From the IMG/VR virus record IMGVR_UViG_3300046018_000061, positions 1 through 21,947 of that record: 21,947 nucleotides of DNA; one strand, written 5' to 3'. Source of the stretch: a virus. Shown piece by piece: positions 5,580 through 21,947 of this stretch. The notes under the pieces were generated by a model. That model saw only the letters and a list, made by a program, of their open reading frames with translations, made no database searches and was not told where the DNA came from. Position 1 is the stretch's first letter. Each line of letters starts with the position of its first letter. A program made the translations under genes and the position numbers.

Positions 5580-8419
5580 TGGCCAAGATCCCGGACATCC
5601 CCAGCACAGAGGACGTGCCGGTAGGGTCGCTGACGTGGCTGAAGAACTGGCTTGATCTCATCCGGCTGTGGGTGCAGTCCAGGGATCCGCAGAACACTCT
5701 AGTCGGGGATCCGCTCGACAAGTTCACCACGCGCAGCGAGCTGGTGAGCCTGGGCCTGATGGCGCGCGGGACGGACGGGACCTTTCAGGTCGGATCCGCT
5801 GGCGGCGGCACGACAACGATCATCACTTCTGGCGGCGGGACTGGAACCGGGTCGACCTACACCCCGGACCTGACGCCCCCTCCGTCTCCGACAGGCCTGG
5901 CGGTGGCGCCCGGTATCGCGTTCATCAACATCACGATCGATGCGCCGACCTACACGCAAGGGCATGGCAACGGGCGCACGCTAATCTACGGGGCGATCTG
6001 GGTGACGGGGGCCGCGGAGCCCACGTTTGCGGACACCAGGACCAAGCTGATCGACTCCATGCCGTCGACAGACACGATCTGTTCGCATGCAACGGAGCCG
6101 AATACCCGCTGGTGCATCTGGGCTGTCTTTGAAACGGTGGATGGGGTCAACGGGATTGCGTCCGGCCACATTGCCGGAGGAACCCACGGGGTCCAGGCCA
6201 CGACGGGCCAGGACGTCACGGCGCTGCTGGCGATCCTGACCGGGCAGATCCAGGCCAGCCAGCTCTACTCGGGGCTGAGTTCGAGGATTGACCTTGTCGA
6301 CGCGGCATCCGGCGCAATCGGGAGTGTGAACTACCGGATTGCACAGAGCGCAGCCACGCTCACCAGCTCGTACACGGCCGCCGACAGCGCAACCCTGGCC
6401 AGCGCGAACACCTACGTCGGCACCTACGCCTACTCAAAGTCAACGGTCGATGGCGCCCTGACGGCCCAGTTCTCGAGCCTGACGGCCAACTACATCAACG
6501 CCGACACGGCGGCGGTTGCCAGCGCTGCTGCCTACACCAACACCTATGCCTACTCGCTGAGCAGCGGCACGGCTCTGGCGGGTAGCGTTTCGACCCTGAC
6601 CGCCAGGTCGACGCGGGTGGTCAACTACAGGGTGCAGGCCAAGGGCTATCTGTCATCCGTTGGAGAGTCAACGCTCAGAGCCGAGGACGGATCCCTGCTG
6701 ATGGGCGGATCCCGGTCCTACAACCTAGTGGTACTGAACGGCAGTACCGGAGCCGTCGAAAGCACGCAGTTCTATGACGTGACCGGGGCGGGTGCCTTCT
6801 CATCGGGCCGAAGCGCTGCAACGCTGGCCACTGACCTCAACGCGATCGACGCAACAAAGGTGGTCATCGTCTTCACGCAAGATGAGCCGCTGACGAACCT
6901 GACATCCAGCAGCCTGCTGGCCGCACTGAAGCGGTGCGGCGCCACCCAGTCGACCCTGGACCGCATCAAATACCGAGGCGCGTACATCCTGGTCGGAGTG
7001 CCAGGAACTGGAGAGGGATCCGGCATCGAGCGCTATGCCGGCGACGTGGACAGTTCAACGGCGGCATGGGTCGACCTCGCGCTGCAGCTGGTCAATGGAC
7101 GCCCGGTTGGAATGGCCGGACAGCCTGCAGTGGCCCAGATGCAGATCTCGCTGCAAGCCGAGGGCACGGCTCGAGCTGGAGCTGACGGCCAGTTGTTCGC
7201 GCAGTACACAGTCAAGATCGACTCCAACGGGACCGTGACGGGCTACGGCCTTGCGTCGGATTCAACGAGCACGGCCGGGCAACGCAGTTCGTTCGCGGTC
7301 CGGGCCGATCAGTTCTATGTGGCGCCTGCTACGACGTTCTCGCAGGAGTCAGCGCCAGCAGGGACATCGGTCGGGCAACTCTGGTTCCGACCCAGCACCC
7401 AGGTTACGACGACCTGGAACGGATCTTCCTGGCAGCCGTACACCACCAGCTTCCCGTTCATCGTCCAGACGGTTCCGACCACGATCAACGGCCAGGCCGT
7501 GCCGGCAGGGACCTACATCGACACGGCGATGATCCGTGACGGCACGATCGTCAACGCGAAGATCGGAAACGCCACGATCGATGACGCCAAGATCGCCACG
7601 CTCAGCGCGACCAAGATCACCGCGGGCTCGATGCAGGTTGGCTCCTACATCCAGTCGACCGGGTTCACCTCAGGGTCTGTGGGCTGGAAGATCTCTGCGG
7701 ACGGGAATGCAGAGTTCAACAATGGCGTCTTTCGAGGGTCCTTGTCGGCCGCGACCGGGACGTTTTCCGGGGCGCTGTCTGGTGCCACCGGGACATTCGC
7801 GGGATCCTTGTCCGGTGCGACCGGGACATTCTCCGGAAGCCTGTCGGCAGCAAGCGGCTCATTCACGGGTCAGGTCACAGCCACCTCAGGCGCCATCGGC
7901 GGAATCACGATCGGCGCGCACGCGCTGCAGTCCAGCAACTTTGTGTCTGGATCTTCAGGCTTCCAGGTCACTGACACCGGGGCGGCCGAGTTCTTCTCAG
8001 TCACGATCAGACAGCCAGTGATCGATGCGTTCGTGACCACGATTACGGGTGGCGACATCTCGATCCTTGGTGGTGGCGCAAACCCATACGGAGCAGCGGT
8101 CTACGGGACAAGGTCTGTCTCCGTTGTGTCCGGCGGCAGGGCTCCGTTTGAGTACTTCTGGGTGGTAGACAACGGCGGCACATTGCTTGGAACTGGTGGC
8201 GCCATGTTTGGCAATCTGAGCCAGGTCTATCCGCGAACTGCATCAAATGCGTCATCCATTCAGATCGGCGGATGGGGTGACGGGTGGATCAACCAGGCCC
8301 GCGTTGCCTGCTTTGTCAAAGACGCCAACGGCAGGGTGAGCTACAGCACCATCCATGTAGCCGCTCAGCACGATCTGAACGCAGGCGGCGGCGGCGGCGG
8401 AGATGGCGGGTCAATTTGA
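5579..8419 (+). CDS. gpJ-like tail fibre / host-specificity protein with ILEI domain
   Basis: This 946-residue fibre-like protein probably contacts the host surface. Visible parts in order: a short N-terminal anchor with Trp-rich helix (17-32); a Gly/Thr linker; an FN3-like domain (about 100-205); an Ala/Thr/Ser-rich stalk (about 210-340); a domain matching the ILEI/FAM3 pattern (about 347-511: SYNLVVLNGSTGAV, VVIVFTQDEP, SLLAALKRCGA, RGAYILVGVPGTG); a DUF1983-like piece as at the end of lambda gpJ (about 522-584); a short Trp-containing segment; then ATKITAGSMQ and GWKISADGNAEFNNG elements typical of gpJ C termini. Five 11-residue repeats (718-772), an Ig-like C-terminal domain (about 830-930) and a Gly-rich tail finish it. 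The start overlaps the previous stop (TGATG). Fibre identity is strong; receptor and exact attachment are unknown. Confidence 0.82.
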   Translation: MAKIPDIPSTEDVPVGSLTWLKNWLDLIRLWVQSRDPQNTLVGDPLDKFTTRSELVSLGLMARGTDGTFQVGSAGGGTTTIITSGGGTGTGSTYTPDLTPPPSPTGLAVAPGIAFINITIDAPTYTQGHGNGRTLIYGAIWVTGAAEPTFADTRTKLIDSMPSTDTICSHATEPNTRWCIWAVFETVDGVNGIASGHIAGGTHGVQATTGQDVTALLAILTGQIQASQLYSGLSSRIDLVDAASGAIGSVNYRIAQSAATLTSSYTAADSATLASANTYVGTYAYSKSTVDGALTAQFSSLTANYINADTAAVASAAAYTNTYAYSLSSGTALAGSVSTLTARSTRVVNYRVQAKGYLSSVGESTLRAEDGSLLMGGSRSYNLVVLNGSTGAVESTQFYDVTGAGAFSSGRSAATLATDLNAIDATKVVIVFTQDEPLTNLTSSSLLAALKRCGATQSTLDRIKYRGAYILVGVPGTGEGSGIERYAGDVDSSTAAWVDLALQLVNGRPVGMAGQPAVAQMQISLQAEGTARAGADGQLFAQYTVKIDSNGTVTGYGLASDSTSTAGQRSSFAVRADQFYVAPATTFSQESAPAGTSVGQLWFRPSTQVTTTWNGSSWQPYTTSFPFIVQTVPTTINGQAVPAGTYIDTAMIRDGTIVNAKIGNATIDDAKIATLSATKITAGSMQVGSYIQSTGFTSGSVGWKISADGNAEFNNGVFRGSLSAATGTFSGALSGATGTFAGSLSGATGTFSGSLSAASGSFTGQVTATSGAIGGITIGAHALQSSNFVSGSSGFQVTDTGAAEFFSVTIRQPVIDAFVTTITGGDISILGGGANPYGAAVYGTRSVSVVSGGRAPFEYFWVVDNGGTLLGTGGAMFGNLSQVYPRTASNASSIQIGGWGDGWINQARVACFVKDANGRVSYSTIHVAAQHDLNAGGGGGGDGGSI
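7730..7894 (+). repeat. Five tandem 33-bp units in the fibre gene
   Basis: Five consecutive 11-codon units follow the pattern F-x-G-x-L-S-x-A-T-G-T (residues 718-772), with units 1-4 most alike and unit 5 diverged (FTGQVTATSGA). The DNA is similar but not identical between units, showing drift since duplication. The period and Gly/Ser/Thr content suit a beta-structured or triple-stranded fibre shaft whose length could change by recombination between units. Confidence 0.9.
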
Positions 8420-8449: not shown

Positions 8450-9604
8450 ATGAGTATCGGAGATATCTTTAAGAAAGCAACTTCAGGGCTTGCATCAGGC
8501 CTCACAGATCTGCTATTCGGCACTCCCGCACAAGCCGACACCAGTGGGATCAATGCAGCCGCTGTCAGCAACTCTGCAATCGCTGGGCGCCAGCAGGATC
8601 TTGCCGAGAAGCAGTACGCCGATAGCAAGAGCATCCTGGACCAGTACCTGCCAATCTACAAACAGCAGTTGCAGCAATCCATTGATGCTCAGAAAACCGC
8701 CACTGACCAAAGCCAAAGCCAGTGGGATTCGTACACCAAGAATTTCCAGCCGGTCGAGACACAGCTCGCGCAGAAGTCGCTTGACTATTCCAACCCTGCC
8801 AGGGCTGAGGCCGAGGCAGCCAGGGCGGCTGGTGACACCACGGCGCAGTTCGACCAGGCGCGTGCCGACACCACCACTCAGTTATCTGCGGCCGGCGCAA
8901 GCCCCGAAAAGATCGCAGCGCTTGAGGCCGCCGGCCGGCTGAACGAGGCCAAGGCTGTCGGCGGCGCGGAGAGCGGAGCCAGGCGGGACACCGAGAGCAA
9001 GGCGATGGCCTACCTGGACAACGCGGCCCGCTTCGGCCGCAACATGCCGTCCACCGGCATTGCCTCGGCGCAGCTGGCCAACCAAGACGGCTCTCGGGCT
9101 GCCAACACTATTGGAAACATTCAGTCTTCAGTGGCGGCGCCTGCGGCTGCAGCAGCACCGCTGTTTCAGAACGCAGTCACTGCCAACAACTCGGCGGGAA
9201 ATCTGTTCAACGCCCAGGCTGGACTGCAGCAGACGGCATCGACAGCCCAATACAACGCCAATATCGGCAATGCGATGGCGGCAGCCCAGATGTATGCAAG
9301 CTATGGAAGCTCCAAGAAGCTCAAGAACCGCAAAGGAAAAACTGACGGCCGCAAAGCATCCGATGCGATCGAGGCCAGCCCCTCCGAGAAGTGGTCCTAC
9401 AAGGCGGGCCTCGGAGATGGAAACACCAAGGATCGTACCGGCCCCATGGCGGAAGACCTAGCAAAAGTGGCCCCCGAGGTCAGCGATGGTGAGACTGTCG
9501 ACGGAATTTCGATGCTGGGTTTGCATCATGCTTCGCTTGGCGACCACAACAAGCGCATCGCACGCCTAGAGCGAGCGGCTTCTCTTTCTGACGCGGAGGT
9601 CTGA
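8450..9604 (+). CDS. Virion protein with C-terminal S74 chaperone-like domain
   Basis: The 384-residue product has a helical, Gln/Ala-rich body with a coiled-coil-like region (about 45-150; QQDLAEKQYADSKSILDQYL), an Ala-rich middle, and a C-terminal segment (about 285-384) resembling the intramolecular chaperone of endosialidase (peptidase S74). That segment opens with SSKKLKNRKG (287 on), then has a hydrophobic SEKWSYKAG strand, GPMAEDLAKVAPEV, and DGETVDGISMLGL, ending in a helix with KRIARLE. S74 domains trimerise and then cleave themselves off, using a Ser/Lys pair; Ser287/288 with Lys289/290 are candidates. AAGGGAG at 8437-8443 sets the ATG at 8450. Its place after the fibre gene and before internal-virion-like genes suggests a tail or ejection component. 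Autocleavage activity is not shown by sequence alone. Confidence 0.75.
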   Translation: MSIGDIFKKATSGLASGLTDLLFGTPAQADTSGINAAAVSNSAIAGRQQDLAEKQYADSKSILDQYLPIYKQQLQQSIDAQKTATDQSQSQWDSYTKNFQPVETQLAQKSLDYSNPARAEAEAARAAGDTTAQFDQARADTTTQLSAAGASPEKIAALEAAGRLNEAKAVGGAESGARRDTESKAMAYLDNAARFGRNMPSTGIASAQLANQDGSRAANTIGNIQSSVAAPAAAAAPLFQNAVTANNSAGNLFNAQAGLQQTASTAQYNANIGNAMAAAQMYASYGSSKKLKNRKGKTDGRKASDAIEASPSEKWSYKAGLGDGNTKDRTGPMAEDLAKVAPEVSDGETVDGISMLGLHHASLGDHNKRIARLERAASLSDAEV

Positions 9605-10751: not shown

Positions 10752-13700
10752 ATGGCAGACGGCGTCATCATCCCCGACGACCTGAAGCCTCTGGCGGGAA
10801 AGTACGGCGATGCGCGCACCGACATCGTCATCCCCGACGACATCAAGGAGCTGGCCGGCAAGTACGCCCCGCCTCCTCCCCCTCCGCCCAAGCCGCCCGG
10901 CATGCTGTCGCGCGCCGCATCCTCGCTGGCGACCCTGGCCGATGCAGTCCCCGAGCCGCGCCCGGTTGGTCAGCGCAGGGGTGGCATGCGCGCCGAGGTG
11001 CAGCCCTACGTTGCTCCGGATGCCCCTCCGGTGGGCCTGGCTGCAGCCGGCGCAGCCCCGCGCCCGGCCGCACCTTCGGATCCCTCGAGCGCGCTGTCCG
11101 ACATCGACTGGCAGGCCACGACCGCTCCGGCGCAGATTCAGACTGCACCGGGGTCTGTCCTTGACCGGCCGGCGGATCCGAACCTTTCATTCAAGGATGC
11201 GAGCGCGCAGCAACTGGCCACCAACGCTCGAGTCCAGCAGGCCAAGGCTGACAACGCTGCGGACACCAAGATCGGCCCGATCCCCAAGACGCTGGCCGAC
11301 AACATCCAGAGCCCGGTGGGTCAGGGCCTGGCTGATCTCGCGATCGCCTACGGCCAGTCCTTCCCTGAGACGCTGAAGCTTGGCGCCGACATCCAGCAGA
11401 TGGTGACGCTTGGAGAAACCAAGCCGATGAGCGATGCCCTGAAGGCGCATAGCGAGTCGATGCGCGGCAAGCTTTCCTCCGACGTGCTGCGCCAGGCGTC
11501 GGAGTTTCAGGATCTGCTGAGCGACAGCCGAGTGAATGCCGCGACGGTAGGCGGGTACCTCATCAAGCACCCACTGTTCACCGCCACTTTGGTCCTTCCA
11601 TCGATTGGTTCGATGGGGGTTGGATACGGATCCGCAAAGCTTGGATCAACCCTCATGGAGCGCGCAGCCTCAAGGGCTGGAGCAAGCGCTGCGGAGATAG
11701 CAACCGCTGCCCGGCGAGGCGCCATCGTCGGATCCAACGTCGGCAATGCCGCGATGAACGCGGGCAGCAACTACGACGAGACGAACGGAAGCCCGCTGCA
11801 AAAACTGCTGTCGGCTGCAGGAGCGGCAGCCGGAACCATGGCGGTCGGCCACCTGACTGAAGGCGGAGTCGCTGCGCAGCTCGCGCACAACGGCGATCGT
11901 CCGATGTCAATGAACCCGGTGGCTGATATCGCCGGGCGGGTCGGCAAGGCCGTGGGTCGGGAAGCGGCACAGGAGGGCGGCGAGCAGCTAAGCCAGGACT
12001 CCAGCCAGGCCGTGGCCGAGGGCAAGCCGCTGGATGCGAACACCCTACTGAAAAGTGCAACGGCCGCGGCGATCCAAGGCGGCGTCATGGGTGGCATGGC
12101 CTCCCCGGGCATCGGGCGAGGCGTCGGCATTCCGATGGATGGCCTGCACGCAGCCATCGACGAAGCCGGCCGCCGGGCAGGCATGGGCCCGAAAGCCACG
12201 CAGGCTCTGCGCGAAGCCGTCATGAACATGGAGCCGGATCAGGCCATCCCATTCGTGGAGCGTGCGCTTGGGCACATGGAGCGGTCCGGTCTGGCCAAGC
12301 GACCCGGCGCCGTCACTACGTTCAAGGCCGAGGTCCAGAAGGTGGCCGACGAGCGGGCGCAGGCCAATCCCGCGGCCGCAGCGCCTGGCGCTTCGACGGC
12401 CAGCACCGATGACTACACCGGCCTGGACACGCCGAGCACCATCCCGCAGATCACCACGCCGGTCGACGAAGCCGCGCATGCCGCAGCCACCAGCCCGACG
12501 AACGGACGGCCGGAGCCGACTGACGCGCAGAAAGAGGCCGGCAACTACGCCAAGGGCCACACGCGAATCGGCGGCATGGACATTGCCATCGAGAACCCGC
12601 AGGGCTCTGTGCGCCGCGGCGTGGATTCCGATGGCACGCCGTGGGAGTCGACCGTGGCCGCGCACTACGGCTACGTCAAGGGGACGCTGGCCGGCGACGG
12701 CGACCATTCGGACGTCTTCATCAAGCCTGGCACACCGGCCGACTACATCGGCCCGGTGTTCGTCATCGACCAGATGGATCCGAAGACGGGCAAGTTCGAC
12801 GAGCACAAGAGCGTGCTTGGCGCCAGCACCGAGGATGAGGCGCGGCGCCTGTATCTGGCCAACTACGACGCCACCGGACCGAAACGGATCGGCGCGATCA
12901 CTCAGGTTCCGCTCCCGGCTTTCAAGAGCTGGGTCAAGGACGGCACGAAGCGCAAGCCACTGGGAGACGTGAGTGAGTACAAGCCTGACCTACACGATTC
13001 TGACTCCCAACCTGCTGGATCTGGTGATGAACCAGCACCTGCTTCTGTGGGAGGCAGCCTGGCTGATGGACGAGTGGCTCCTGACTCCGGAAAACCAGAG
13101 CAGGGAGCTGCCCCAAGCCCTGTACGAGGCAGCGAGCAAGCTGCACCTGCTGAGCCTGGAAGCCAGCGAGACAAGGCACTGAATGACCTGAGCGCCGGCC
13201 TCAAGGAGCTGGGTGGCGTTCTTCAACCGAAAGCAGTGGCACCGGAGCAGGGCCCAAACACGCAACCCCAAGGCGCCCAATCGCCGGCTGCCACTGCCCC
13301 TACCAATGCACCAGACACCACCGGAACCGAAACCAAAGCGCCCGAAGCCGCGGCAGGAAAAGCGCAAGCGCCGACAGGAGCTGCAGGAGCAGCAGGATCC
13401 GCAGCGGCTGATACCGGAGCCCGACCCGCTCCCGTGGAAGCCGGAGGGGTAAAGCCGGCGCCCGAAGTGGGCGAGGTCTACACCATCGACGGCAAGCCGC
13501 ACACGGTATTCCGGGTTTCCAAGAACAGCGTGACGTTCAAGACCGGGCAAGGCCAGCGCGCGGTGATGTTCAAGTCCGATGCGTGGAAGCAGGCCGCCAA
13601 GGTCGAGCCGACCGCTCCGGCCGCGCCAAAGGTCTACAAGCTCCGCAGCCAGGCCGAGAAAGCCCGCGACGAGCTGGGCAACACGCACCGGATGCGCAAG

Positions 13701-15500
13701 GTCCAGGGCGGCTACATCCTGCGCCCGTCCACCGAGAAGGAGCAAGCCGCGGCCGCGCGCAACGGTCAGCGCCTGGCCGGCGGCAGCAGCCCGGATGTCG
13801 ACAAGGATTCCATGCTGACGGCGATTGCCAAGCTGGGTGGCCTGCACATCGACGAGAAGCCGGACACCATTGGCGAGGGCAACAAGAACGTCGGCGGCAA
13901 GATGCTGTTCACCAAGAACGGCATGCGCCTGGACGAAATGGCCAACGGCGCATTGAGCGAGTTCGGCTACATCCCGGCAGACCACCGAGGCGACCCGACG
14001 AACTGGCTGCGCAGCGCCATCCGTGACGAGTTCATGGGCGGCACCAAGCACCACAGCGACCAGGGTGTCGGCTGGATGGAGTCACGATCAGGCCAAGCAG
14101 AGAGCCTGAGCGATGAGGAAATCCAGGCCCGCCGGGATGACTACGAGCGCCAGCAAGAGGAAGCGCTGTCCGACTTCACCCCCGACGAGCTGGACGAGGT
14201 TGGCTACACTGCCGGCTCGCCTGCGGCACAAGCCCTGACCGAGCAGATGCTGCGCGATGCAGAGGCGGCCGGGATCGACACCGAGACTCTGCGCGATGAT
14301 GTCGTCAGGGCCACCGAAGGACTATCGAACGATGAGTACCACGCCCAACTCCAAGCCGCCCTCGCTGAAGCTCTCGCCCAGAACGGCCGCGCTGGCTCAA
14401 ACAATGAGCCCCAAGGATCGCGAGCAAGCGCTGAAGATCACGGCCAAGCTGCTGGCAATCAGAGCCAGAAAGAAGGCCGCGGCGAACAAGCCGTAGACGC
14501 CCCGGCGCTGGACCTCGAGGCCCAGACGCCAGCCGACCTGAAGGACAAGGCAGACCGCGAGGAAGCAGCTACCAAGGCCGAGCGCGCCAAGAAGGCCGCC
14601 GAGCAAGAGCGACTTCGCAAGGAAGCCGAGGCCCGGGACCTGAAGGCCCGCGCCGATCAAACGGTCGACGATTTTCAGCTGGGCCAGGATGCAGACCAGC
14701 AGATGAGCGGCATGGGCAGCCTGTTCGATGAGCCGGCTGCCGCTCCGACACCAGCGCCAGCAATCTCGCCACAGCCTGGCGAAATTCCCGCCAACGTCAA
14801 GTCCCGCCTGAAAGCGGCGCTCGAATACCTGCAGGGCATCCGTGAGGAGGTAGACCGCGTCAAGAAGGTTGGCGGCTCGCAGGATGTGCGTGTCACCTGG
14901 GAGAAGTACGCGACTCAGGTGGCCAACACCGAGGAGCGGGTCGACCAGATGGAGGCCAAGGCCAAGGAGCTGGGCGTGGACATCGCGCCCGCCGTGGCTG
15001 AACTTGGTGGCAGGCCTACGTTCGATGATGTTCGTTCGGCCACCGCCAACCACCCAGATGCAGCGCAGCCAGACTCATACGGCGAGGAGCCGACTTTCAC
15101 CGAGGCTCAGGCCCGCAAGCAGATCGAATGGCGCGACTTGGGCCAAAAGGACGGCACCAAGACCCATGCGATGTTTTTCTACACGCGGCCCGCTGACAAG
15201 GGCACCGGCCGCGCCATGGGCTACGGCAACGTGCAGCTGTTCCAGCGCTCATCCGGGTGGAAGGTTGACGGCGAAGGAAATACCATCCCGTCACTGGCCG
15301 ATGCCAAGAAGGCAGCAATCGACGCGGCCATCCCGAAGTTGCGCGAGCAGGGGTGGATCTCCGCCGCCAACGAGTCCACCGCCAGGACCAATATCGATGC
15401 CAGCAACACCAACGAGGGCCGAGGCAGGCCTGAAGAACTGATCGCGCTGCGCAAACGGCAGTCCATTCTCAAGTCACTGATGGAGTGCCTGCAATCATGA
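10752..15500 (+). CDS. Giant polyvalent internal protein with pyrophosphatase-like domain
   Basis: This 1582-residue multidomain protein is probably packaged and delivered with DNA. It starts with a duplicated 15-residue motif (5-19 and 25-39, core IPDD), then a Pro-rich linker. Helical regions with Gly/Ala-rich hydrophobic stretches follow (about 258-295, 348-380, 435-465), as in ejected envelope-channel proteins. A domain at about 590-738 resembles inorganic pyrophosphatase (InPase of polyvalent proteins): HYGYVKGT, then DGDHSD (649-654), close to the DxDxxD metal-binding signature. Next are a linker (741-901), an SH3-like barrel (905-946), a small helical domain (about 1017-1097; LTAIAKLGGL), a second linker (1194-1248), a coiled coil (about 1260-1308), another helical segment, and a C-terminal mixed domain (about 1451-1536). 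AGGAG at 10738-10742 marks the start. Both linkers carry nested ORFs. The pyrophosphatase match is by motif only. Confidence 0.8.
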   Translation: MADGVIIPDDLKPLAGKYGDARTDIVIPDDIKELAGKYAPPPPPPPKPPGMLSRAASSLATLADAVPEPRPVGQRRGGMRAEVQPYVAPDAPPVGLAAAGAAPRPAAPSDPSSALSDIDWQATTAPAQIQTAPGSVLDRPADPNLSFKDASAQQLATNARVQQAKADNAADTKIGPIPKTLADNIQSPVGQGLADLAIAYGQSFPETLKLGADIQQMVTLGETKPMSDALKAHSESMRGKLSSDVLRQASEFQDLLSDSRVNAATVGGYLIKHPLFTATLVLPSIGSMGVGYGSAKLGSTLMERAASRAGASAAEIATAARRGAIVGSNVGNAAMNAGSNYDETNGSPLQKLLSAAGAAAGTMAVGHLTEGGVAAQLAHNGDRPMSMNPVADIAGRVGKAVGREAAQEGGEQLSQDSSQAVAEGKPLDANTLLKSATAAAIQGGVMGGMASPGIGRGVGIPMDGLHAAIDEAGRRAGMGPKATQALREAVMNMEPDQAIPFVERALGHMERSGLAKRPGAVTTFKAEVQKVADERAQANPAAAAPGASTASTDDYTGLDTPSTIPQITTPVDEAAHAAATSPTNGRPEPTDAQKEAGNYAKGHTRIGGMDIAIENPQGSVRRGVDSDGTPWESTVAAHYGYVKGTLAGDGDHSDVFIKPGTPADYIGPVFVIDQMDPKTGKFDEHKSVLGASTEDEARRLYLANYDATGPKRIGAITQVPLPAFKSWVKDGTKRKPLGDVSEYKPDLHDSDSQPAGSGDEPAPASVGGSLADGRVAPDSGKPEQGAAPSPVRGSEQAAPAEPGSQRDKALNDLSAGLKELGGVLQPKAVAPEQGPNTQPQGAQSPAATAPTNAPDTTGTETKAPEAAAGKAQAPTGAAGAAGSAAADTGARPAPVEAGGVKPAPEVGEVYTIDGKPHTVFRVSKNSVTFKTGQGQRAVMFKSDAWKQAAKVEPTAPAAPKVYKLRSQAEKARDELGNTHRMRKVQGGYILRPSTEKEQAAAARNGQRLAGGSSPDVDKDSMLTAIAKLGGLHIDEKPDTIGEGNKNVGGKMLFTKNGMRLDEMANGALSEFGYIPADHRGDPTNWLRSAIRDEFMGGTKHHSDQGVGWMESRSGQAESLSDEEIQARRDDYERQQEEALSDFTPDELDEVGYTAGSPAAQALTEQMLRDAEAAGIDTETLRDDVVRATEGLSNDEYHAQLQAALAEALAQNGRAGSNNEPQGSRASAEDHGQAAGNQSQKEGRGEQAVDAPALDLEAQTPADLKDKADREEAATKAERAKKAAEQERLRKEAEARDLKARADQTVDDFQLGQDADQQMSGMGSLFDEPAAAPTPAPAISPQPGEIPANVKSRLKAALEYLQGIREEVDRVKKVGGSQDVRVTWEKYATQVANTEERVDQMEAKAKELGVDIAPAVAELGGRPTFDDVRSATANHPDAAQPDSYGEEPTFTEAQARKQIEWRDLGQKDGTKTHAMFFYTRPADKGTGRAMGYGNVQLFQRSSGWKVDGEGNTIPSLADAKKAAIDAAIPKLREQGWISAANESTARTNIDASNTNEGRGRPEELIALRKRQSILKSLMECLQS
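10764..10868 (+). repeat. Duplicated 15-codon motif at the polyvalent N terminus
   Basis: Codons 5-19 (VIIPDDLKPLAGKYG) and 25-39 (IVIPDDIKELAGKYA) are near copies separated by five codons; the DNA shares CATCCCCGACGAC in both. The duplication lies at the extreme N terminus of the 1582-residue protein, directly before a Pro-rich linker, and could be a tandem docking or packaging peptide. Confidence 0.85.
12973..13182 (+). CDS. Nested ORF 1, overprinted in linker of polyvalent gene
   Basis: This encodes 69 residues in the +1 frame relative to the host gene, starting at GTG with GGGAG at 12962-12966 (6 nt spacing). The protein is Leu-rich and acidic with four Trp/Tyr-containing amphipathic segments (HLLLWEAAWLMDEWLL, LPQALYEAASKLHLLSLE), unlike the Arg/Ser/Pro-rich shadow products elsewhere in this frame. 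Only 13 of 69 codons end in A/T, while 43 of 70 overlapping host codons do, so the G/C third-position bias sits in the nested frame. The host frame here is a Gly/Pro/Ala/Asp/Ser linker (741-810). No family is recognised and no clear membrane helix is present. It is followed after 30 nt by a second nested ORF in the same frame. Real translation is likely but unproven. Confidence 0.65.
   Translation: MSTSLTYTILTPNLLDLVMNQHLLLWEAAWLMDEWLLTPENQSRELPQALYEAASKLHLLSLEASETRH
13213..13452 (+). CDS. Nested ORF 2, basic Pro-rich, overprinted in same linker
   Basis: This predicts 79 residues in the +1 frame, GTG start with AAGGAG at 13203-13208 (4 nt spacing). The N terminus (MAFFNRKQWHRSRAQ) is basic; the middle is Pro/Lys/Arg-rich (PEPKPKRPKPRQEKRKRRQE), followed by Gln-rich and Pro/Trp segments. 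Sixteen of 79 codons end in A/T against about 42 of 80 in the overlapping host frame, so the codon signal again favours the nested frame. The host frame reads as an Ala/Pro/Gln/Thr linker (821-900). Composition is less protein-like than nested ORF 1, so low-complexity shadow coding remains possible. If real, the strong positive charge suggests nucleic-acid or acidic-partner binding. No family or membrane or lipobox signal is visible. Confidence 0.48.
   Translation: MAFFNRKQWHRSRAQTRNPKAPNRRLPLPLPMHQTPPEPKPKRPKPRQEKRKRRQELQEQQDPQRLIPEPDPLPWKPEG
14332..14496 (+). CDS. Nested ORF 3, small basic protein overprinted in linker
   Basis: This encodes 54 residues in the +1 frame from ATG 14332, with GAAGGA at 14316-14321 (10 nt spacing, rather long). 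The N-terminal half is Ser/Pro/Thr-rich; the C-terminal half forms a basic amphipathic helix (SPKDREQALKITAKLLAIRA) ending in a Lys/Arg/Ala tail. Ten of 54 codons end in A/T versus 25 of 55 in the host frame, a weaker shift than for the other nested ORFs. The frame is open further upstream, but those codons give Arg/Pro/Ser-rich shadow sequence, so ATG 14332 is the better start. The host frame here is an Asn/Gln/Gly/Ala/Ser linker (1194-1248). Family unknown. Confidence 0.5.
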   Translation: MSTTPNSKPPSLKLSPRTAALAQTMSPKDREQALKITAKLLAIRARKKAAANKP

Positions 15501-15979
15501 GTGCCCAAGGAAACCTTGACTGGATCGCTGCGAAGGTTGGCGACATCGAGCGCCAGATGCGCAAGGACCAGGACAAGCGGCTCGAGGCTTTCACCTCGCT
15601 GCTGTCGTCCATCGAATCGAGCCTGGCCGACGTGGTGCAGAACATCGAGAGCGGCAAGGGCGATGAGGCCATCAAGTCCATGGCCGAGGCGATCGGCAAG
15701 CTGCAGATCCCCGCGCCTCAGATCAACGTCAACGTGAGCCCGACGCCGATCACGGTATCGGCCGCCGAGCAGCCCCCACCGCAGGTCAACGTGCAGGTCA
15801 GCCCGACGCCAGTGACCATCGAAAACAAGGTGCCCCAATCCCCGGCGCCCGTTGTGAACATCGTCGCGCCTCAGATGGATGTCGATGCCGTTTGGGAGTT
15901 GCGCATCCCAGGCGTTGGATTCCGGGCTGAAGACCGGGTCGTCACGATCAAGCGCATCTCCAACAAACTGAAACCCTGA
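15497..15979 (+). CDS. Coiled-coil plus beta-repeat structural protein
   Basis: The 160-residue product starts at ATG 15497, which overlaps the polyvalent stop as ATGA; GGAG at 15482-15485 is 11 nt upstream, and an in-frame GTG at 15485 is less likely. The first 70 residues are charged and helical (IERQMRKDQDKRLEAFTSLL), then come two related beta-rich units with the pattern N-V-N/Q-V-S-P-T-P-I/V-T-V/I (about residues 75-112), and a compact C terminus (VWELRIPGVGFRAEDRVVTI region). A rod with a small beta tip would suit a fibre, tail-tip or connector component. I do not recognise a named family. It opens a cassette of five structural-looking genes between the two polyvalent genes. Confidence 0.6.
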   Translation: MSAQGNLDWIAAKVGDIERQMRKDQDKRLEAFTSLLSSIESSLADVVQNIESGKGDEAIKSMAEAIGKLQIPAPQINVNVSPTPITVSAAEQPPPQVNVQVSPTPVTIENKVPQSPAPVVNIVAPQMDVDAVWELRIPGVGFRAEDRVVTIKRISNKLKP

Positions 15980-15989
15980 AAGGTAAATC

Positions 15990-16394
15990 ATGGCGAAATG
16001 GGCAAACATCACAGTCCTCGACGGCGGATCGGACTCGATTCGCACTCTGGCCGGAACAGCAGCGCGCGTGAAGATGCACGTCATCAAGGCCTACACCGCA
16101 GGCGATGCCTACGCGACGGTGGTCACGACGAACAGTTGCGGCAGCGTCGACCTGGTTGCTGGCGACCTGGTTCAGTCTGGTGCCGCAGGTGCTGCGAGGG
16201 TCACGACGGTCGGTGCCAAGAGCATCTCGCTGACAGCATCCAGCGGCGCCACGCCGAACCTGCACATCGCAATCGTCGACTCGACTGGCAGCTCCGTGCT
16301 GCTGGTCACGGATGAGACGTCGGATCAGGTGCTGACCTCTGGCGGATCGTTCAGCTTGCCGAGCTGGACCTACACCGTCAGTCAGCCGGTGTAA
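15990..16394 (+). CDS. Small beta-rich structural-like protein
   Basis: The 134-residue product is dominated by Thr/Ser/Val/Ala with regular strands (ARVKMHVIKAYTAGDAYATV, residues 25-44; VDLVAGDLVQSG; ARVTTVGAKSISLTAS; NLHIAIVDSTGSSVLLVT), as expected for a beta-sandwich virion protein. A single Cys occurs near residue 50. AAAGG just after the preceding stop (about 15978-15982) places the ATG at 15990. The last residues (SLPSWTYTVSQPV) form a terminal strand. There is no signal peptide or membrane helix. It belongs to the cassette 15497-18431; a decoration or tail-accessory role is an inference. Confidence 0.6.
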   Translation: MAKWANITVLDGGSDSIRTLAGTAARVKMHVIKAYTAGDAYATVVTTNSCGSVDLVAGDLVQSGAAGAARVTTVGAKSISLTASSGATPNLHIAIVDSTGSSVLLVTDETSDQVLTSGGSFSLPSWTYTVSQPV

Positions 16395-16397
16395 GCG

Positions 16398-16724
16398 ATG
16401 GCCGAGTCATTCGTAGGCGTTGCGCCAGACGGATCCGGCAAGGCGGTCGATGCCTTCACCGTCACGAACCCAAACACAGGAGTCCTGCAGTACCGGCAGA
16501 CCACCGTCATCGGGGATCCGTTGCAGGCCGGGCAGGTTGCCGGGGTCAGCAACGGCGCTCTGAGTGTTTCTGATGCGCCTACTGCAGAGGGAGAGGAGGG
16601 CGATGAACTTCTGAAACTCATCCTCATCGAGATCCGCATCTTGAACCATCTGATTGCTTCCGAGTTCCGTGTGCGCGAAGACATCGTCGCACTTCGTTCC
16701 GATCCCACCATCTCTCAAACCTAA
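16398..16724 (+). CDS. Small protein with beta N terminus and helical C terminus
   Basis: This is a 108-residue protein: a beta-rich N-terminal half with a Gly-containing strand-turn pattern (GKAVDAFTVTNPNTGVLQYR, residues 14-33; TVIGDPLQAGQVAGVSNG), an acidic linker (EGEEGDE, 64-70), then a helix likely to form a coiled coil (LLKLILIEIRILNHLIASEF, 71-90). Such a layout suits an oligomeric fibre base or trimerisation piece. It starts 3 nt after the previous stop with only a weak ribosome site, pointing to translational coupling. No named family is recognised. Confidence 0.58.
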   Translation: MAESFVGVAPDGSGKAVDAFTVTNPNTGVLQYRQTTVIGDPLQAGQVAGVSNGALSVSDAPTAEGEEGDELLKLILIEIRILNHLIASEFRVREDIVALRSDPTISQT

Positions 16725-16733
16725 GGAAAAACC

Positions 16734-17369
16734 ATGCTCATCCAAGCGCAAGCGGGCAACCTGCCCAACCAGTCCAACAAAAGCGGACAGAACAGCGTCA
16801 GTCAAGGCTGGCTGAATGAGGCGCTCGTCTCGGAGATCCTGCCGCCTTACAGCACGCTGAATCAGAACGCATTCGTCTTCACCGCGTTTGTCAACGGTGT
16901 GACTCTGGCGGCCACGCATGCCAGTCCACTGACTGCCGGCACGGGGACTCCGATCCTGTCGATTTACAACCCTGCCAACAGCGGCCGGAACATCCACTTG
17001 CTCCGTTCCAAGTCCACGACGACCAGCGGCACCCCTGGCGGCCCGCTGCTGTGGAATGTCATCCCGAACCCGGCCAACATCACGGCGGCGTCTTCGGTTC
17101 CGTCCTCGAACATCATCGGCGGCGCAGCCGCTTCGGTGGCCAAGCTGTGGGTGAACACTGCCACCACCGGCAGCACGGTCGGCACGCCATTCCGTGTGCT
17201 TGGCGGTCCCGCTGCCGTCGCCGCGGGTGCTGGCCTCTACAACTTCGAAGAGGAGCACAAGGGCGACATCATCATCCCGCCGGGCTCGATGCTGGCGCTG
17301 GCGGCCACCGCCGCGGGCACGACACACATTGTGTCGGCTTGGACGACCTGGGCTGAACTGCCGATCTAA
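16734..17369 (+). CDS. Beta-rich virion-like protein of unknown family
   Basis: The 211-residue product is Ala/Thr/Ser/Asn/Gly-rich, with strands such as FVFTAFVNGVTLAATHAS (about 47-64), ILSIYNPANSGRNIHLLRSK (about 74-93) and a C-terminal IIIPPGSMLALAATAAGTT followed by HIVSAWTTWAEL. The IPPGSMLAL piece followed by a short strand is typical of jelly-roll capsid-spike or decoration folds. An AAGGA sequence (about 16724-16728) precedes the ATG at 16734. It lies in the cassette between the polyvalent genes, next to the 22-residue-repeat gene. Structural role is inferred; no enzyme motifs are visible. Confidence 0.6.
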   Translation: MLIQAQAGNLPNQSNKSGQNSVSQGWLNEALVSEILPPYSTLNQNAFVFTAFVNGVTLAATHASPLTAGTGTPILSIYNPANSGRNIHLLRSKSTTTSGTPGGPLLWNVIPNPANITAASSVPSSNIIGGAAASVAKLWVNTATTGSTVGTPFRVLGGPAAVAAGAGLYNFEEEHKGDIIIPPGSMLALAATAAGTTHIVSAWTTWAELPI

Positions 17370-17390
17370 TCTTCGGCGCTCGTCTAAGTC

Positions 17391-18431
17391 ATGCTGCTTT
17401 CGCTGCGGTCCCTGGTAGAGACACCAGTAAACAGTGTCTCTGGGACCGTAGCAAATGCAGCCAGCGCCACCCTCGTTGATGTTCTAGCAGGTACACAGGC
17501 AAATGTCGGTGTTGTCGATGGCGCTACCACCTCGACGACCTTAGATGCGGTAGCAGGGACCCAGCTCTACATCGGCGTTGTTGCGGCGGCCACATCCGCC
17601 ACAGCTCTTTCCACGGTAGCTGGTGCGCAGACCATCATCGGGGTGGTTGCAGCAGCCACCACTGCCACAGCGCTTTCGACGGTCGCTGGCACGCAAGGCC
17701 TGGCCGGCACCGTTGCAGCAGCGGTTTCCGCCACGACTCTTTCGACACTGGCGGGGACTCAGGCGGGGATTGCCACCGTCGCATCCGAGGTATCTGCAAC
17801 GGCGCTGTCCACCCTGGCTGGCGCTCAGACCTACGTCGGTGCAGTAGCTTCTGCCACTTCGGCCATAAGCCTCTCGACGGCCGCCGGCACACAGACCTAC
17901 GCGGGCGCCGTTGCATCGGCTGTCACTGCAACAGCCCTGAGCACGCCAGCAGGGGCAGGGGCGGGGAGCGCAGCAGTCGCTCCCGCGCAGAGCGACACGC
18001 AGCTTTCGACGGTCGCCGGCACTCAGGCCAATGTCGGATCAGTTGCTGGCGCTGCGTCCTCGACAACGACCAGCACCCCAGCCGGCACCCAGGCCTACGC
18101 CGGCAGCATTGCTGCGGCGTCTTCGGCAACCGTACTTTCAACGGTCGCGGGCACTTTCAGCTCGTCACCCAGCGCGGCAGTCGACAGCCTCTCGAGCTCT
18201 ACCGCCGTGGATTCTGTGGCGGGGACTCAGTCCTACGTTGGGTCCGTCGACTCCGCCGTCAGCGCCACGATCCTGAGCCTTGTCACCGTGCCGGGTGGAG
18301 ATCCGATCCAGCAGCAGGTCTTCTACGCCGATGACGACACCCCGCTGAATCGCCTGGATGACCTGATCGATGACGAAGCGTTTCACATCGCGCTTGCCAC
18401 AATCATGAGTGGAGTTCTATGCCAAGTCTGA
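17391..18431 (+). CDS. Repeat-rich fibre-like protein (22-residue repeats)
   Basis: The 346-residue protein is almost entirely Ala, Thr, Ser, Val and Gly. After a short N terminus (1-33) come twelve tandem units (34-299), eleven of 22 residues and one of 24, with the pattern G-T-Q-x-x-x-G-x-V-A-x-A-x-S-A-T-x-L-S-T-x-A. A charged C-terminal tail follows (ADDDTPLNRLDDLIDDEAFH). Regular small and beta-branched residues suggest a beta-solenoid or trimeric beta fibre. There is no convincing Shine-Dalgarno before ATG 17391, which starts 21 nt after the previous stop, so the exact start is uncertain. Its last 13 nt overlap the start of the helicase-methyltransferase gene. It could be an adhesin-like tail fibre or a capsid fibre; no receptor-binding head is recognisable. 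Confidence 0.68.
   Translation: MLLSLRSLVETPVNSVSGTVANAASATLVDVLAGTQANVGVVDGATTSTTLDAVAGTQLYIGVVAAATSATALSTVAGAQTIIGVVAAATTATALSTVAGTQGLAGTVAAAVSATTLSTLAGTQAGIATVASEVSATALSTLAGAQTYVGAVASATSAISLSTAAGTQTYAGAVASAVTATALSTPAGAGAGSAAVAPAQSDTQLSTVAGTQANVGSVAGAASSTTTSTPAGTQAYAGSIAAASSATVLSTVAGTFSSSPSAAVDSLSSSTAVDSVAGTQSYVGSVDSAVSATILSLVTVPGGDPIQQQVFYADDDTPLNRLDDLIDDEAFHIALATIMSGVLCQV
17490..18287 (+). repeat. Twelve tandem 66-bp units (one of 72 bp)
   Basis: The units encode the 22-residue pattern beginning GTQ or GAQ and ending LSTxA. Ten 66-bp units run from 17490, then a 72-bp unit lacking the GTQ core (GTFSSSPSAAVDS), then a final 66-bp unit. The protein pattern is much better kept than the DNA, so the array is old and under protein-level selection rather than a recent slippage product. 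Confidence 0.9.
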
Positions 18432-21400
18432 CCACTTGCGTTAAACGCGCCGGCTCTGCCCTCTCAGCCGAGGACAAGAACGCCATCCTCGAGCGCTCCA
18501 GAGCCCTACGCAGCGAGGGCCTGGACGCACAAGAGGCCGCGCTCAAGGCCGTGCGTGAGCAGTTGTCTGCCGTGCAGTCCTTGCTTGGCATCGCTCCGCA
18601 AGACGACCAGGCGCCTGCATCCCTGCCCGCGACCAAGGCGGCATCCGGGGACAGCGAGGAGGTCAAGAAGGCCAAGGCCGATCTGGCGGCAGGCCTGGGC
18701 GACCTGGCGGCACTGTTCAGCAAGTCGGCCCGGTCCAACATCGTGCCCGAGGAGGAGCAGCGCCTCCTGCCGATCCTGACCAAGGTGTTCGATGCGGCTT
18801 TCCGGCTGGGATACCTGAAGTTCAAGGACGCATCCAAGTTCGTGCTCGACCAGATTCGCGGCGCGTTGGGCAACGAGGCGGCGGATGCCATCACCATCGA
18901 TCATTTGGCCGGCGCTTATATCGGCATGGCGGGTCGGTACAAAGACCAAGGCGCCAGCACAAGGAAGGAAGTTGTCTCGGTTGAGGACAAGGCGGAGATC
19001 GAGTCCCACCAGCCCGAGGCGGATAATTCACCCCAGGAGCCCGACCATGTACCAGACACCCCAGCCGCTCTGGAACGAGATCGCCAAGACGCAGGAGCTG
19101 AAGACGCCCCTGTGGCGGGAGATGTTCAAGGCGACCAATCCTCAGGAAGCGCTCCAGCCCCTGGAGGATCAGCTTCAAGCGCGCGGAGCGGACGCCCGAG
19201 TGATCCGAGCGTTCCTCCTCGTCGACCCCCTCCTCAAGGAGAATCTGGCGATCAGCCGGTTCATCGAGGCGACGGGGCGGGACAGCCTTCGCTCTGGGCT
19301 CCCCGAGATCCTGACGGTAAACGAAGCGACGACCCTGGCATCCCAGGAGTTTCGCCTGAAACCCTCTCAGCAGAAGATGTTGCAGACGCTGCTGAAGGCG
19401 GAATGGACGATGCCGCCAAGCGCAGCGCCCAGCGAGAAGCCGACAAACTCCCAGTAAAGCAGGGCGACCTCGCCAACATCCGGGCCACGCTGCCCTACCT
19501 GCTGCCCGGCCAGCAGGAGGATGTTCACTTTGCGGAGCAGCGGCTGTCAAAGCCTGATGGCTACGGCGTGCTGTTCACTAACGGCACTGGCACGGGCAAA
19601 ACTTTCCTCGCGCTTGGAATCGTCAAGCGCCATGACCGCCAGGGCAAGACCAACACCCTGATCCTGGTGCCGGACGGCAAGATCATGTCCGACTGGGTCG
19701 ACTCCGGCCGGGCGCTGGGCCTGACGCTGACGCCGCTGGAGGACACCAAGGACGCCGGCCGCGGCATCACCATCACGACCTACGCCAACGCGGGCGACAA
19801 CGACTCGCTGGCCACCCGGGCGTGGGATCTGGTTGTCCCCGACGAGGCCCACGGCCTGATGCAGTCGGCTGACGGCGGAATGACCAAGGCCCTCGAGGTG
19901 GTGCGTGCCATCACGCTGCATCCGGATGGCAAGTACCAGCGCTTCGACATGCTGCACCGCCCCGAGATCGAGCGGCGCACGGAGCTGGGCAAGCAGATCG
20001 ATGCGAACAACAAGCTTGCCAGCAAGGACGACACCATGGATGTCATGGTGGATTCGCTGCGCAAGGAGAACGCCAGGCTCCAGGCCGAGTGGAATGCTCT
20101 GAACGCCAAGCTCGAGGCCGACAAGGCGCGGATCTTCAAGCACGTCGAGGACAACCAGGGCGCCGCGCGCCCACGCCTGGCTGCGCTGTCTGCCACCCCG
20201 TTCGCCTATGTGCCGACGATCGAATGGGCGCAGGGGTACGTCTTCGACTACGGCCCCGAGCCCAAGGACCGCGGCTACAACACGCCGAGTGCGAGCCAGC
20301 AGTTCTTCATGCAGCACTTCGGCTACCGGATGCGCTACGGCAAGCTCACCAAGCCGGAGGCAGCGGTCGACAGCGGGTTGCTCGAGCGCCAGTTCAACAC
20401 CTGGCTGAAGAAGTCCGGCTCGCTGTCCGGCCGGATGCTGGACGTTCATGCCGACTACGACCGGCGGTTTATCCTGGCCGAGAGCAAGGTTGGCAACGAG
20501 ATCGACCGGGCCCGAGAGTGGATCCGCGAGCAGGCCAAGGCGCTGGACGAGCAGCACAAGAAGGAAGACAAGGAGACGGCGCACAACGGATTCAGCTTCC
20601 TGATGGCCGATCTGGCGAACAATTTCGAGGGCCCGCTTGCCCACCTGATGCGCCGCTACCTGCTGGAGGCGATCAAGGCCAAGGAGGTCATTCCGCACGT
20701 CCGGCAGCACCTGGCCATGGGCCGCAAGGTGGTGGTGTTCCACGACTTCAAGCAAGGCGGATCCACCAACCCGTTCCGGTTCACCCCGCGCACTGCGCCG
20801 GGCCCAGGCAGTGAACAGGTCGACGTGCCGGCGGCGCGCGAGGCCTACAACCAGGCGGCCAATGCGTTCAACAAGGAATTTCCGGACCTTGCCGGCGACC
20901 AGCTTCTGGCCGACCTGATCTCCCCGGTGGCGAGGTTCGTGCGCGAGTTCCCCGATGTCCTGCTGATCAATGGCGACCAGAAGAAGTCCGACCTTTTGGC
21001 CCGCTACCGGCGCTTCCAGTCCGATGACAGCGGGCCGATGGTCATGCTGGTGCAGTCGGACAAGAACAAGGGATGGAGCGGCCACGACACCACGGGCAAG
21101 CACCAGCGCGTGCTGTTCAACCTGGGCCTGCCGACGCAGCCGACCAAGACCATCCAGACCGAGGGCCGAATCTACCGCACTGGCCAGGCCTCGGATGCGA
21201 TGTTCCGATACCTGAACACCGGCACCAACTGGGAGCGCTGGGCCTTCGCTTCGACCATCGCAGAGCGCGCCGGCACCGCCGAGAACCTGGGCATGGGCGA
21301 GCAGGCCCGCGCCCTGAAGGACGGGTACATCGCGGCTTTCGAGGAGAGCGGCGACTTCCCGGCTGGCCATGAGGGTGAGGGCAAGGGCGGCAAGGAGCGT

Positions 21401-21947
21401 GACCGCCTGGCCAATTCAGCCATCAGTGAGTACGACCGGGCCAAGGCTTTCTACTGGGCCACCGAGAAGAAGAGCGACCGCACCAAAGCCCGCGAGGGTG
21501 CCGACTATTTCGCCACGCCTGAGCCGCTGGGCCTGAAGATGACGCAGTGGCTGAACCTGCGCGGCGGCGAGGCATCGCTCGAGCCGAGCGCCGGGCATGG
21601 CGCGATCGCCCGCTGGCTGCCGGACAACACCGTCCGCACCGCCATCGAGCCAAGCACCGAGCTGGGCTCGCGCCTGGCGCTGGTGTTCGACGGCAAGATC
21701 ATCCGGGGCAATTTCGATGACCTGCACGTCGTCAACAAGTTCGACGGCGTGGCGATGAATCCCCCGTTCGGATCCGATGGGCGCACCGCGGTCGACCACG
21801 TTGCCAAGGCAGCTACGCACCTGAACGAGGGCGGGCGCATCGTGGCGCTGATCCCCGAGGGATCCACGAACGAGAAATTCGACAAGTGGTTCTACGAGGA
21901 AAGCAAGCGGCCGAGCAAGCCCCTCTACACCCTGGACCGCCTGGGCC
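18419..21947 (+). CDS. Polyvalent helicase-methyltransferase, anti-restriction-like, 3' partial
   Basis: At least 1176 codons, open to the window end. It starts at ATG 18419 with GGAG at 18411-18414 and overlaps the previous gene by 13 nt. Two helical domains familiar from phage polyvalent proteins (15-49 and 84-175) precede a Gly/Pro/Asp linker (210-328). An SF2 helicase follows: Walker A GTGTGKT (389-395), DEAH (475-478), SAT (591-593) and motif VI QTEGRIYRTGQ (913-923), closest in style to SNF2/strawberry-notch ATPases. Then a class I N6-adenine methyltransferase-like domain: YFATPEPL, motif I EPSAGHG (1055-1061) and motif IV NPPF (1114-1117). P1 DarB pairs such domains to protect injected DNA from restriction, so that role is suggested. 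In the +1 frame the linker carries a nested ORF. ATG 19403 could serve as an internal start of a shorter form. Confidence 0.85.
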   Translation, partial: MPSLTTCVKRAGSALSAEDKNAILERSRALRSEGLDAQEAALKAVREQLSAVQSLLGIAPQDDQAPASLPATKAASGDSEEVKKAKADLAAGLGDLAALFSKSARSNIVPEEEQRLLPILTKVFDAAFRLGYLKFKDASKFVLDQIRGALGNEAADAITIDHLAGAYIGMAGRYKDQGASTRKEVVSVEDKAEIESHQPEADNSPQEPDHVPDTPAALERDRQDAGAEDAPVAGDVQGDQSSGSAPAPGGSASSARSGRPSDPSVPPRRPPPQGESGDQPVHRGDGAGQPSLWAPRDPDGKRSDDPGIPGVSPETLSAEDVADAAEGGMDDAAKRSAQREADKLPVKQGDLANIRATLPYLLPGQQEDVHFAEQRLSKPDGYGVLFTNGTGTGKTFLALGIVKRHDRQGKTNTLILVPDGKIMSDWVDSGRALGLTLTPLEDTKDAGRGITITTYANAGDNDSLATRAWDLVVPDEAHGLMQSADGGMTKALEVVRAITLHPDGKYQRFDMLHRPEIERRTELGKQIDANNKLASKDDTMDVMVDSLRKENARLQAEWNALNAKLEADKARIFKHVEDNQGAARPRLAALSATPFAYVPTIEWAQGYVFDYGPEPKDRGYNTPSASQQFFMQHFGYRMRYGKLTKPEAAVDSGLLERQFNTWLKKSGSLSGRMLDVHADYDRRFILAESKVGNEIDRAREWIREQAKALDEQHKKEDKETAHNGFSFLMADLANNFEGPLAHLMRRYLLEAIKAKEVIPHVRQHLAMGRKVVVFHDFKQGGSTNPFRFTPRTAPGPGSEQVDVPAAREAYNQAANAFNKEFPDLAGDQLLADLISPVARFVREFPDVLLINGDQKKSDLLARYRRFQSDDSGPMVMLVQSDKNKGWSGHDTTGKHQRVLFNLGLPTQPTKTIQTEGRIYRTGQASDAMFRYLNTGTNWERWAFASTIAERAGTAENLGMGEQARALKDGYIAAFEESGDFPAGHEGEGKGGKERDRLANSAISEYDRAKAFYWATEKKSDRTKAREGADYFATPEPLGLKMTQWLNLRGGEASLEPSAGHGAIARWLPDNTVRTAIEPSTELGSRLALVFDGKIIRGNFDDLHVVNKFDGVAMNPPFGSDGRTAVDHVAKAATHLNEGGRIVALIPEGSTNEKFDKWFYEESKRPSKPLYTLDRLG
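19047..19457 (+). CDS. Nested ORF 4, well-formed protein overprinted in helicase-gene linker
   Basis: This encodes 136 residues in the +1 frame, ATG with AGGAG at 19035-19039 (7 nt spacing). The product looks like an ordinary folded helical protein: PLWNEIAKTQELKTPLWREM, a Gln/Leu-rich helix, RVIRAFLLVDPLLKENLAIS, and LKPSQQKMLQTLLKAEW. Only 23 of 136 codons end in A/T, versus 72 of 119 in the overlapping host linker; after 19403 the bias returns to the host frame. The frame is open back to 18885, but that part is Arg/Ser/Pro-rich shadow. The last 55 nt overlap the host's M329 region leading into the helicase. No family is recognised. It is the best-supported nested gene here; a small anti-defence or virion-assembly protein is possible but unproven. 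Confidence 0.75.
   Translation: MYQTPQPLWNEIAKTQELKTPLWREMFKATNPQEALQPLEDQLQARGADARVIRAFLLVDPLLKENLAISRFIEATGRDSLRSGLPEILTVNEATTLASQEFRLKPSQQKMLQTLLKAEWTMPPSAAPSEKPTNSQ

Follow-up and report, generated by a model that had tools for sequence, protein, structure and literature searches.

Evidence for small protein genes nested out of frame in the linkers of two giant polyvalent-type phage genes

Four nested open reading frames and their codon signal

The IMG/VR virus record IMGVR_UViG_3300046018_000061, of which positions 1 to 21,947 (21,947 bases) constitute the window analyzed here, derives from a GC-rich tailed phage and includes two giant genes of the polyvalent type. We propose that the linkers between the domains of these giant genes contain small protein genes that are distinct from the giant ones and are read in the +1 frame, a reading to which we assign a probability of about 0.88. 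The candidates are four open reading frames (ORFs) on the plus strand, each lying wholly within a host ORF on the same strand and in another frame. The first-pass annotation, made from the sequence alone, had placed four such ORFs in two large genes, all at +1 and each with an upstream purine-rich site, and this description holds. ORF1 (12973 to 13182; 69 aa) has a GTG start with GGGAGA upstream and an in-frame TGA adjoining the start; ORF2 (13213 to 13452; 79 aa) also has a GTG start, preceded by AAGGAG; ORF3 (14332 to 14496; 54 aa) begins at an ATG with GAAGGA upstream; and ORF4 (19047 to 19457; 136 aa) begins at an ATG with AGGAG, has a predicted all-alpha product, and terminates just 5′ of a helicase domain. 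The mechanically defined ORF3 begins at 14257, but the purine-rich site belongs to the start at 14332.

The openness and length of the +1 frames are not useful as evidence, because with this host protein and the codon usage of the genome the chance probabilities of an open frame are 0.85, 0.90, 0.94 and 0.59 for ORF1 to ORF4 respectively; the informative signal is codon position. The first-pass counts of A/T-ended codons are reproduced for the nested frames (13/69, 16/79, 10/54 and 23/136) and for the first three host stretches (43/70, 42/80 and 25/55), but the fourth host count is 78/137 rather than the 72/119 given. After correction for amino acid composition, the number of host codons with G or C at the third position (GC3) is well below expectation in all four overlaps (27 observed versus 54.0 expected for ORF1, 38 versus 61.7 for ORF2, 30 versus 43.0 for ORF3, and 59 versus 105.5 for ORF4), while GC3 in the nested frames matches the values expected for an ordinary gene of this genome (56 versus 56.7, 63 versus 64.2, 44 versus 43.8, and 113 versus 111.0). 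Ranked by host GC3 loss among the 46 same-strand overlapping ORFs of at least 50 codons in the window, the four nested ORFs occupy ranks 1 to 4, with z scores from −4.0 to −8.7 (ORF2, −6.2; ORF3, −4.3 when counted from 14332).

The ORF4 family

Searching with tblastn reveals homologues of ORF4 in six isolate phages (E values from 2e-16 to 3e-13), namely Skulduggery, Ruegeria 45A6, Klebsiella ZX1, Serratia Parlo, and the Vibrio phages D274 and 1.232.O, whose hosts are Pseudomonas, Ruegeria, Klebsiella, Serratia and Vibrio. In all six, ORF4 is at +1 within one annotated giant coding sequence (CDS) of ∼9.5–11.7 kb and is itself unannotated; in Skulduggery it occupies 33577–33966 of MF042361.1. 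Scanning IMG/VR and bacterial genomes yielded 36 ORF4 loci, and a scan based on the adjacent helicase shows that 79 of the 80 closest relatives have ORF4 at +1, mostly ending 6–99 nt 5′ of the helicase match; an AT-rich relative whose helicase is only 35% identical (L208) also has it at +1. Among 96 nonredundant ORF4 copies, 94 are nested at +1 and none at +2, and in the remaining two (L113 and L114) stops cut the host frame while the nested frame is intact. The search for free-standing homologues that the first-pass annotation had recommended gave, for ORF4, none among the classed loci other than these two non-nested copies; a search for such copies in genomes of one class (369) and of one order (399) gave a single weaker new match (G281), and its locus, L210, is among the loci classed.

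Homology within the family starts at the ATG, and the nested amino acid sequences can be aligned down to 30–40% identity. An AlphaFold2 model built with 33 sequences has eight helices and is confidently predicted (predicted local distance difference test [pLDDT] 92.5, predicted template modeling score 0.84). The window ORF4 has no sequence-family match in Pfam, PHROGs or NCBIfam, and neither Foldseek against PDB and BFVD (no match at E ≤ 0.001) nor VIA-align 2 (best Z 3.3, with an rmsd of 4.5 across 89 residues) revealed a clear structural relative, which does not by itself prove a new fold. From these comparisons we infer that ORF4 is a real and widespread gene whose predicted product represents a new protein family.

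Two further loci resemble ORF4. A homologue (39% identity, E 3e-16) is present at 31696–32103 of the Comamonas thiooxydans plasmid NZ_CP083940.1, a 57.7-kb record that is possibly a phage-plasmid, where it lies under an annotated ‘LPD38 domain-containing protein’. In L056, a 150-aa nested +1 ORF (4899–5351) with strong host GC3 loss has a 45-residue motif in common with ORF4 (20 bits), and is situated after the inorganic pyrophosphatase (InPase) domain rather than before the helicase.

ORF1, ORF2 and ORF3

Searches of phage records by tblastn gave nothing useful for ORF1 or ORF3, and ORF1 was recovered only by way of relatives and a hidden Markov model (HMM). An HMM that excludes the window, and that derives from the nested ORFs of three relatives only (G001, G012 and G004), matches ORF1 with an E value of 6.5e-7 among 15,080 six-frame fragments. 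All 12 nonredundant matches to this family are at +1 relative to their hosts, they lie close to the InPase domain, immediately after it in some relatives and immediately before it in others, and many have a T-x-His C-terminus. The AlphaFold model of ORF1 is of middling confidence (pLDDT 73.8). We conclude from the profile match that ORF1 is a member of a conserved family of predicted nested genes.

ORF2 and ORF3 are probable nested genes, as judged from their codon signature, position, purine-rich sites and weak similarities, the product of ORF3 being small and basic. ORF2 resembles L012 4716–4907, with a matching distance to the InPase domain, and ORF3 is matched by a window-free HMM of a small basic nested family in the relatives, of which eight of eight members are at +1. 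A scan for relatives of the host gene segment between 13440 and 14250 found none.

Selection on the two frames

We used an OLGenie-type count on eight sequence pairs, in which each change is classed by its effect in both frames. For the ORF4 overlap the pooled ratios are 0.31 (nested dNN/dNS) and 1.01 (host dNN/dSN); the host DNA immediately 3′ of the overlap serves as a control, with ratios of 0.97 for the phantom +1 frame and 0.18 for the host. The differences at nested codon positions 1, 2 and 3 number 159, 127 and 262 in the overlap versus 188, 621 and 242 in the flanking control, host position 1 corresponding to nested position 3. For the same DNA, nested identity exceeds host identity in all of the pairs listed. 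Close pairs within the ORF1 family behave similarly, with nested ratios of 0.09–0.28 and host ratios near 1.

At the level of sequence comparison these data show that in both the ORF4 and ORF1 families the nested frame codes for a conserved predicted protein under purifying selection, and that over these overlaps the host frame appears to be kept open and otherwise free to change. Because the nested frame is constrained and the host frame is only kept open, we read the disordered-looking host linker as mostly an out-of-phase reading of the nested gene. The first-pass annotation had suggested that the linkers are by-products in this way, and the change in host ratio from 1.01 across the overlap to 0.18 alongside it bears this out, as does a close relative lacking ORF4 (L188), in which only about 27 aa of host (read by eye) are found at this place. 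In nine of the ten relatives in which it could be measured the host length at the ORF4 site is 150–166 aa, and in the tenth (L192) it is 491 aa. Two outcomes that would have spoken against nested genes, disruption of the nested frames with retention of the host and nested dN/dS values near 1, were not encountered; the nested frames in the relatives are open, and the ratios for ORF4 and for close ORF1-family pairs are those given above.

Several points nonetheless weigh against our interpretation. The similarities of ORF2 and ORF3 to their presumed relatives are weak, with E values of 0.24 and 0.031 respectively. The selection ratios rest on simple Jukes-Cantor counting, and the eight pairs are not all drawn from separate clades. 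One divergent ORF1-family pair (G001 and G012) has a nested ratio of 1.05, possibly reflecting saturation together with alignment error. Lastly, the 80 helicase loci were retrieved with patterns from ORF4-bearing relatives, which biases that sample toward the presence of ORF4.

Nested candidates in related genomes

A scan of 18 records gave a raw count of 41 strong candidates at +1 and none at +2, although host GC3 responds less strongly to nesting at +2, and a few of the 41, such as those in the 746-aa ORF of G004, probably reflect a host called in the wrong frame. Some candidates belong to known families. One relative (G005; L125, minus strand, 6178–6828) has an HNH endonuclease of full length (phrog_3377, E 4e-52) nested at +1; its 3046-aa host ORF is open throughout, and the endonuclease is positioned just after a ParB-like stretch, the ParB-like part being present in relatives. 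In L023 a +1 nested ORF at 1023–1196 matches phrog_2423, over residues 1–21 only, with an E value of 1.4e-9. These observations suggest that there may be nested families beyond those of ORF4 and ORF1.

In nine relatives (L084, L085, L088, L090, L094–L096, L103 and L112) a nested +1 ORF of ∼53 aa lies immediately upstream of ORF4 (∼3836–4000), its stop codon adjoining the ORF4 ATG in an arrangement resembling a nested operon. We do not claim this ORF as a gene, its nested ratio being 0.75.

Which frame came first

The alternative that fares best questions the direction of origin and not the reality of the nested genes: that they are younger than their hosts, having arisen de novo on a pre-existing linker. 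Many viral nested genes originated in this manner, and composition predicts a +1 bias (PMC2542354). The frame of an overlap with genome-like codon usage is expected to be the ancestral one (PMC3744397), and here the correlation with genome codon usage, pooled over the window overlaps, is 0.69 for the nested frames and 0.30 for the host frames, with the nested frame nearer to genome usage in 23 of 26 relatives. Thus it is the host overlap that has the atypical codon usage, and not the nested frame as would be expected of a de novo gene. The host frame is moreover unconstrained, and the HNH endonuclease nested in a relative cannot have arisen de novo. We consider classical overprinting unlikely, and the codon usage suggests instead that the nested frames may be the older partners and the host linker the later, overprinted reading. 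The term overprinting used in the first-pass annotation is therefore apt insofar as the linkers are by-products, but its direction may need to be reversed.

With odds a little short of even, the giant polyvalent genes may have engulfed their small functional neighbors, extending a reading frame through them without destroying them. None of the relatives found has ORF4 by itself between two polyvalent genes that are both intact, and engulfment stays at the level of inference. If it did occur, the linkers would be out-of-phase translations of other genes and would carry a hidden cargo of genes, mobile HNH endonucleases among them, and engulfment could provide a general phage route to multi-domain proteins.

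Initiation and possible roles of the nested genes

The nested genes would be translated independently, by internal initiation at a Shine-Dalgarno (SD) sequence and an ATG or GTG codon within the giant mRNA. A match of at least five bases to the SD sequence is present at 60% of ORF4 starts and at 4% of other ATGs nearby, and it is this enrichment, along with the stops directly preceding some starts, that points to internal initiation. Programmed frameshifting out of the host frame, with a fused or truncated product instead of a separate protein, would account for nesting that is always at +1. However, an upstream entry by frameshifting is excluded wherever a nested-frame stop adjoins the start, as is the case for ORF4 in the nine relatives listed above and for ORF1 in the window; the SD sites stand far above background, and homology extends from the ATG onward. 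For ORF2 to ORF4 of the window the nested frame is open slightly further upstream, and there the stop codons alone would be compatible with frameshifting, but with all of the evidence combined we regard it as very improbable.

Still less credible is a compositional artefact, in which low-complexity linkers rich in Ala, Gly and Pro and encoded by GC-rich DNA would simply keep the +1 frame open, the nested ORFs not being genes at all. Chance openness is indeed high (P 0.59–0.94), and the window has many longer spurious +1 ORFs, such as that of 236 aa at 12262–12972. But most other overlapping ORFs lack the loss of host GC3 (z is +2.3 for 12262–12972), the pattern persists in AT-rich relatives and takes in known families, and for the ORF4 and ORF1 families the explanation is contradicted by their conservation, with the nested amino acids under selection and the host frame neutral. 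Least likely of all is that an RNA structure or DNA signal in the linkers drives the synonymous constraint, for while host third positions are unusually conserved in the overlaps, variation peaks at nested third positions, such that the constraint tracks the nested genetic code, and the nested proteins both align at 30–40% identity and give a confident fold prediction.

As to function, the small proteins may be partners of the giant protein, assisting its folding or packaging or inhibiting it. We offer such a helper or inhibitory role tentatively and think it less likely than not; it is a guess prompted by the constant position of ORF4, which in almost every close relative is next to this helicase domain.

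Relationship to known systems

Small genes contained within larger ones, in another frame and with an internal start, are familiar from phiX174, in which E lies within D, and from the lambdoid phages, in which Rz1 lies within Rz. The nested genes described here are similar in lying wholly inside a larger gene in another frame, with a presumed internal start, but differ in that one linker after another of the giant genes is occupied by small families unrelated to each other, and in that the host protein is unconstrained beneath those nested genes tested.

Same-strand overlaps of phase 1 in bacteria have a +1 bias that has been ascribed to start-codon composition (PMC2542354); the phase bias is the same here, but the genes are fully nested and are conserved across phages of many hosts. 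The codon-usage logic is that applied to viral overprinted genes (PMC3744397), except that here the embedded frame, and not the large gene, looks ancestral. The host proteins resemble the polyvalent proteins of Iyer et al. (2017; PMC5512222) in being giant and multi-domain, with InPase, helicase and methyltransferase-like domains; the main text of that paper does not contain the terms ‘overlapping’, ‘low-complexity’ or ‘linker’, nor anything on nested out-of-frame genes that a search by term would find. Among open-licence papers on nested phage genes we found no report of this arrangement, and an earlier description elsewhere is possible.

At least two conserved phage families thus appear to have been overlooked by annotation, being out of frame within the giant genes of some 90 relatives, and pipelines that forbid nested genes will overlook such families. 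The nested genes offer a concrete and testable origin for the low-complexity linkers of phage polyvalent proteins, as well as a natural case of two overlapping frames, one under constraint and the other free to vary.

The host genes and other features of the window

The first host gene (10752 to 15500, plus strand), within which ORF1, ORF2 and ORF3 lie, encodes a polyvalent-type protein of 1582 aa with an InPase domain (PF18823, residues 591–729, E 9.2e-46), and its PHROG matches include DarB-like antirestriction. The second (18374 to 21947, plus strand; first ATG at 18419), containing ORF4, is also of the polyvalent type and runs past the end of the window; it has a ResIII/Strawberry-notch-like helicase (PF04851, E 1.3e-7) and a methyltransferase-like region, and matches phrog_10691 and phrog_5143. 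By Pfam and PHROGs, both are giant multi-domain phage proteins with effector-type domains. The host frame is coding on either side of the overlaps, with conserved domains in one frame and a single annotated giant CDS in the six isolates. In a related locus (L105, ∼4366–5265) the Walker A motif of the helicase (GTGK|T) is apparently split by an intein-like insertion that starts with AQPLDAGILTPGGWKTMGDIHEGDFVIG.

Elsewhere in the window there is a Phage_capsid_3 major capsid gene (1102–2388), and a gene of 346 aa at 17391–18431 is built of degenerate repeats resembling ATTATALSTVAGTQ. Low host GC3 is also seen outside the two host genes, at 8490–8942, 9060–9461 and 17406–17585 (z from −3.2 to −5.2); of the ORFs overlapping there, those at 8490 and 9060 begin with TTG and do not look like protein sequences.

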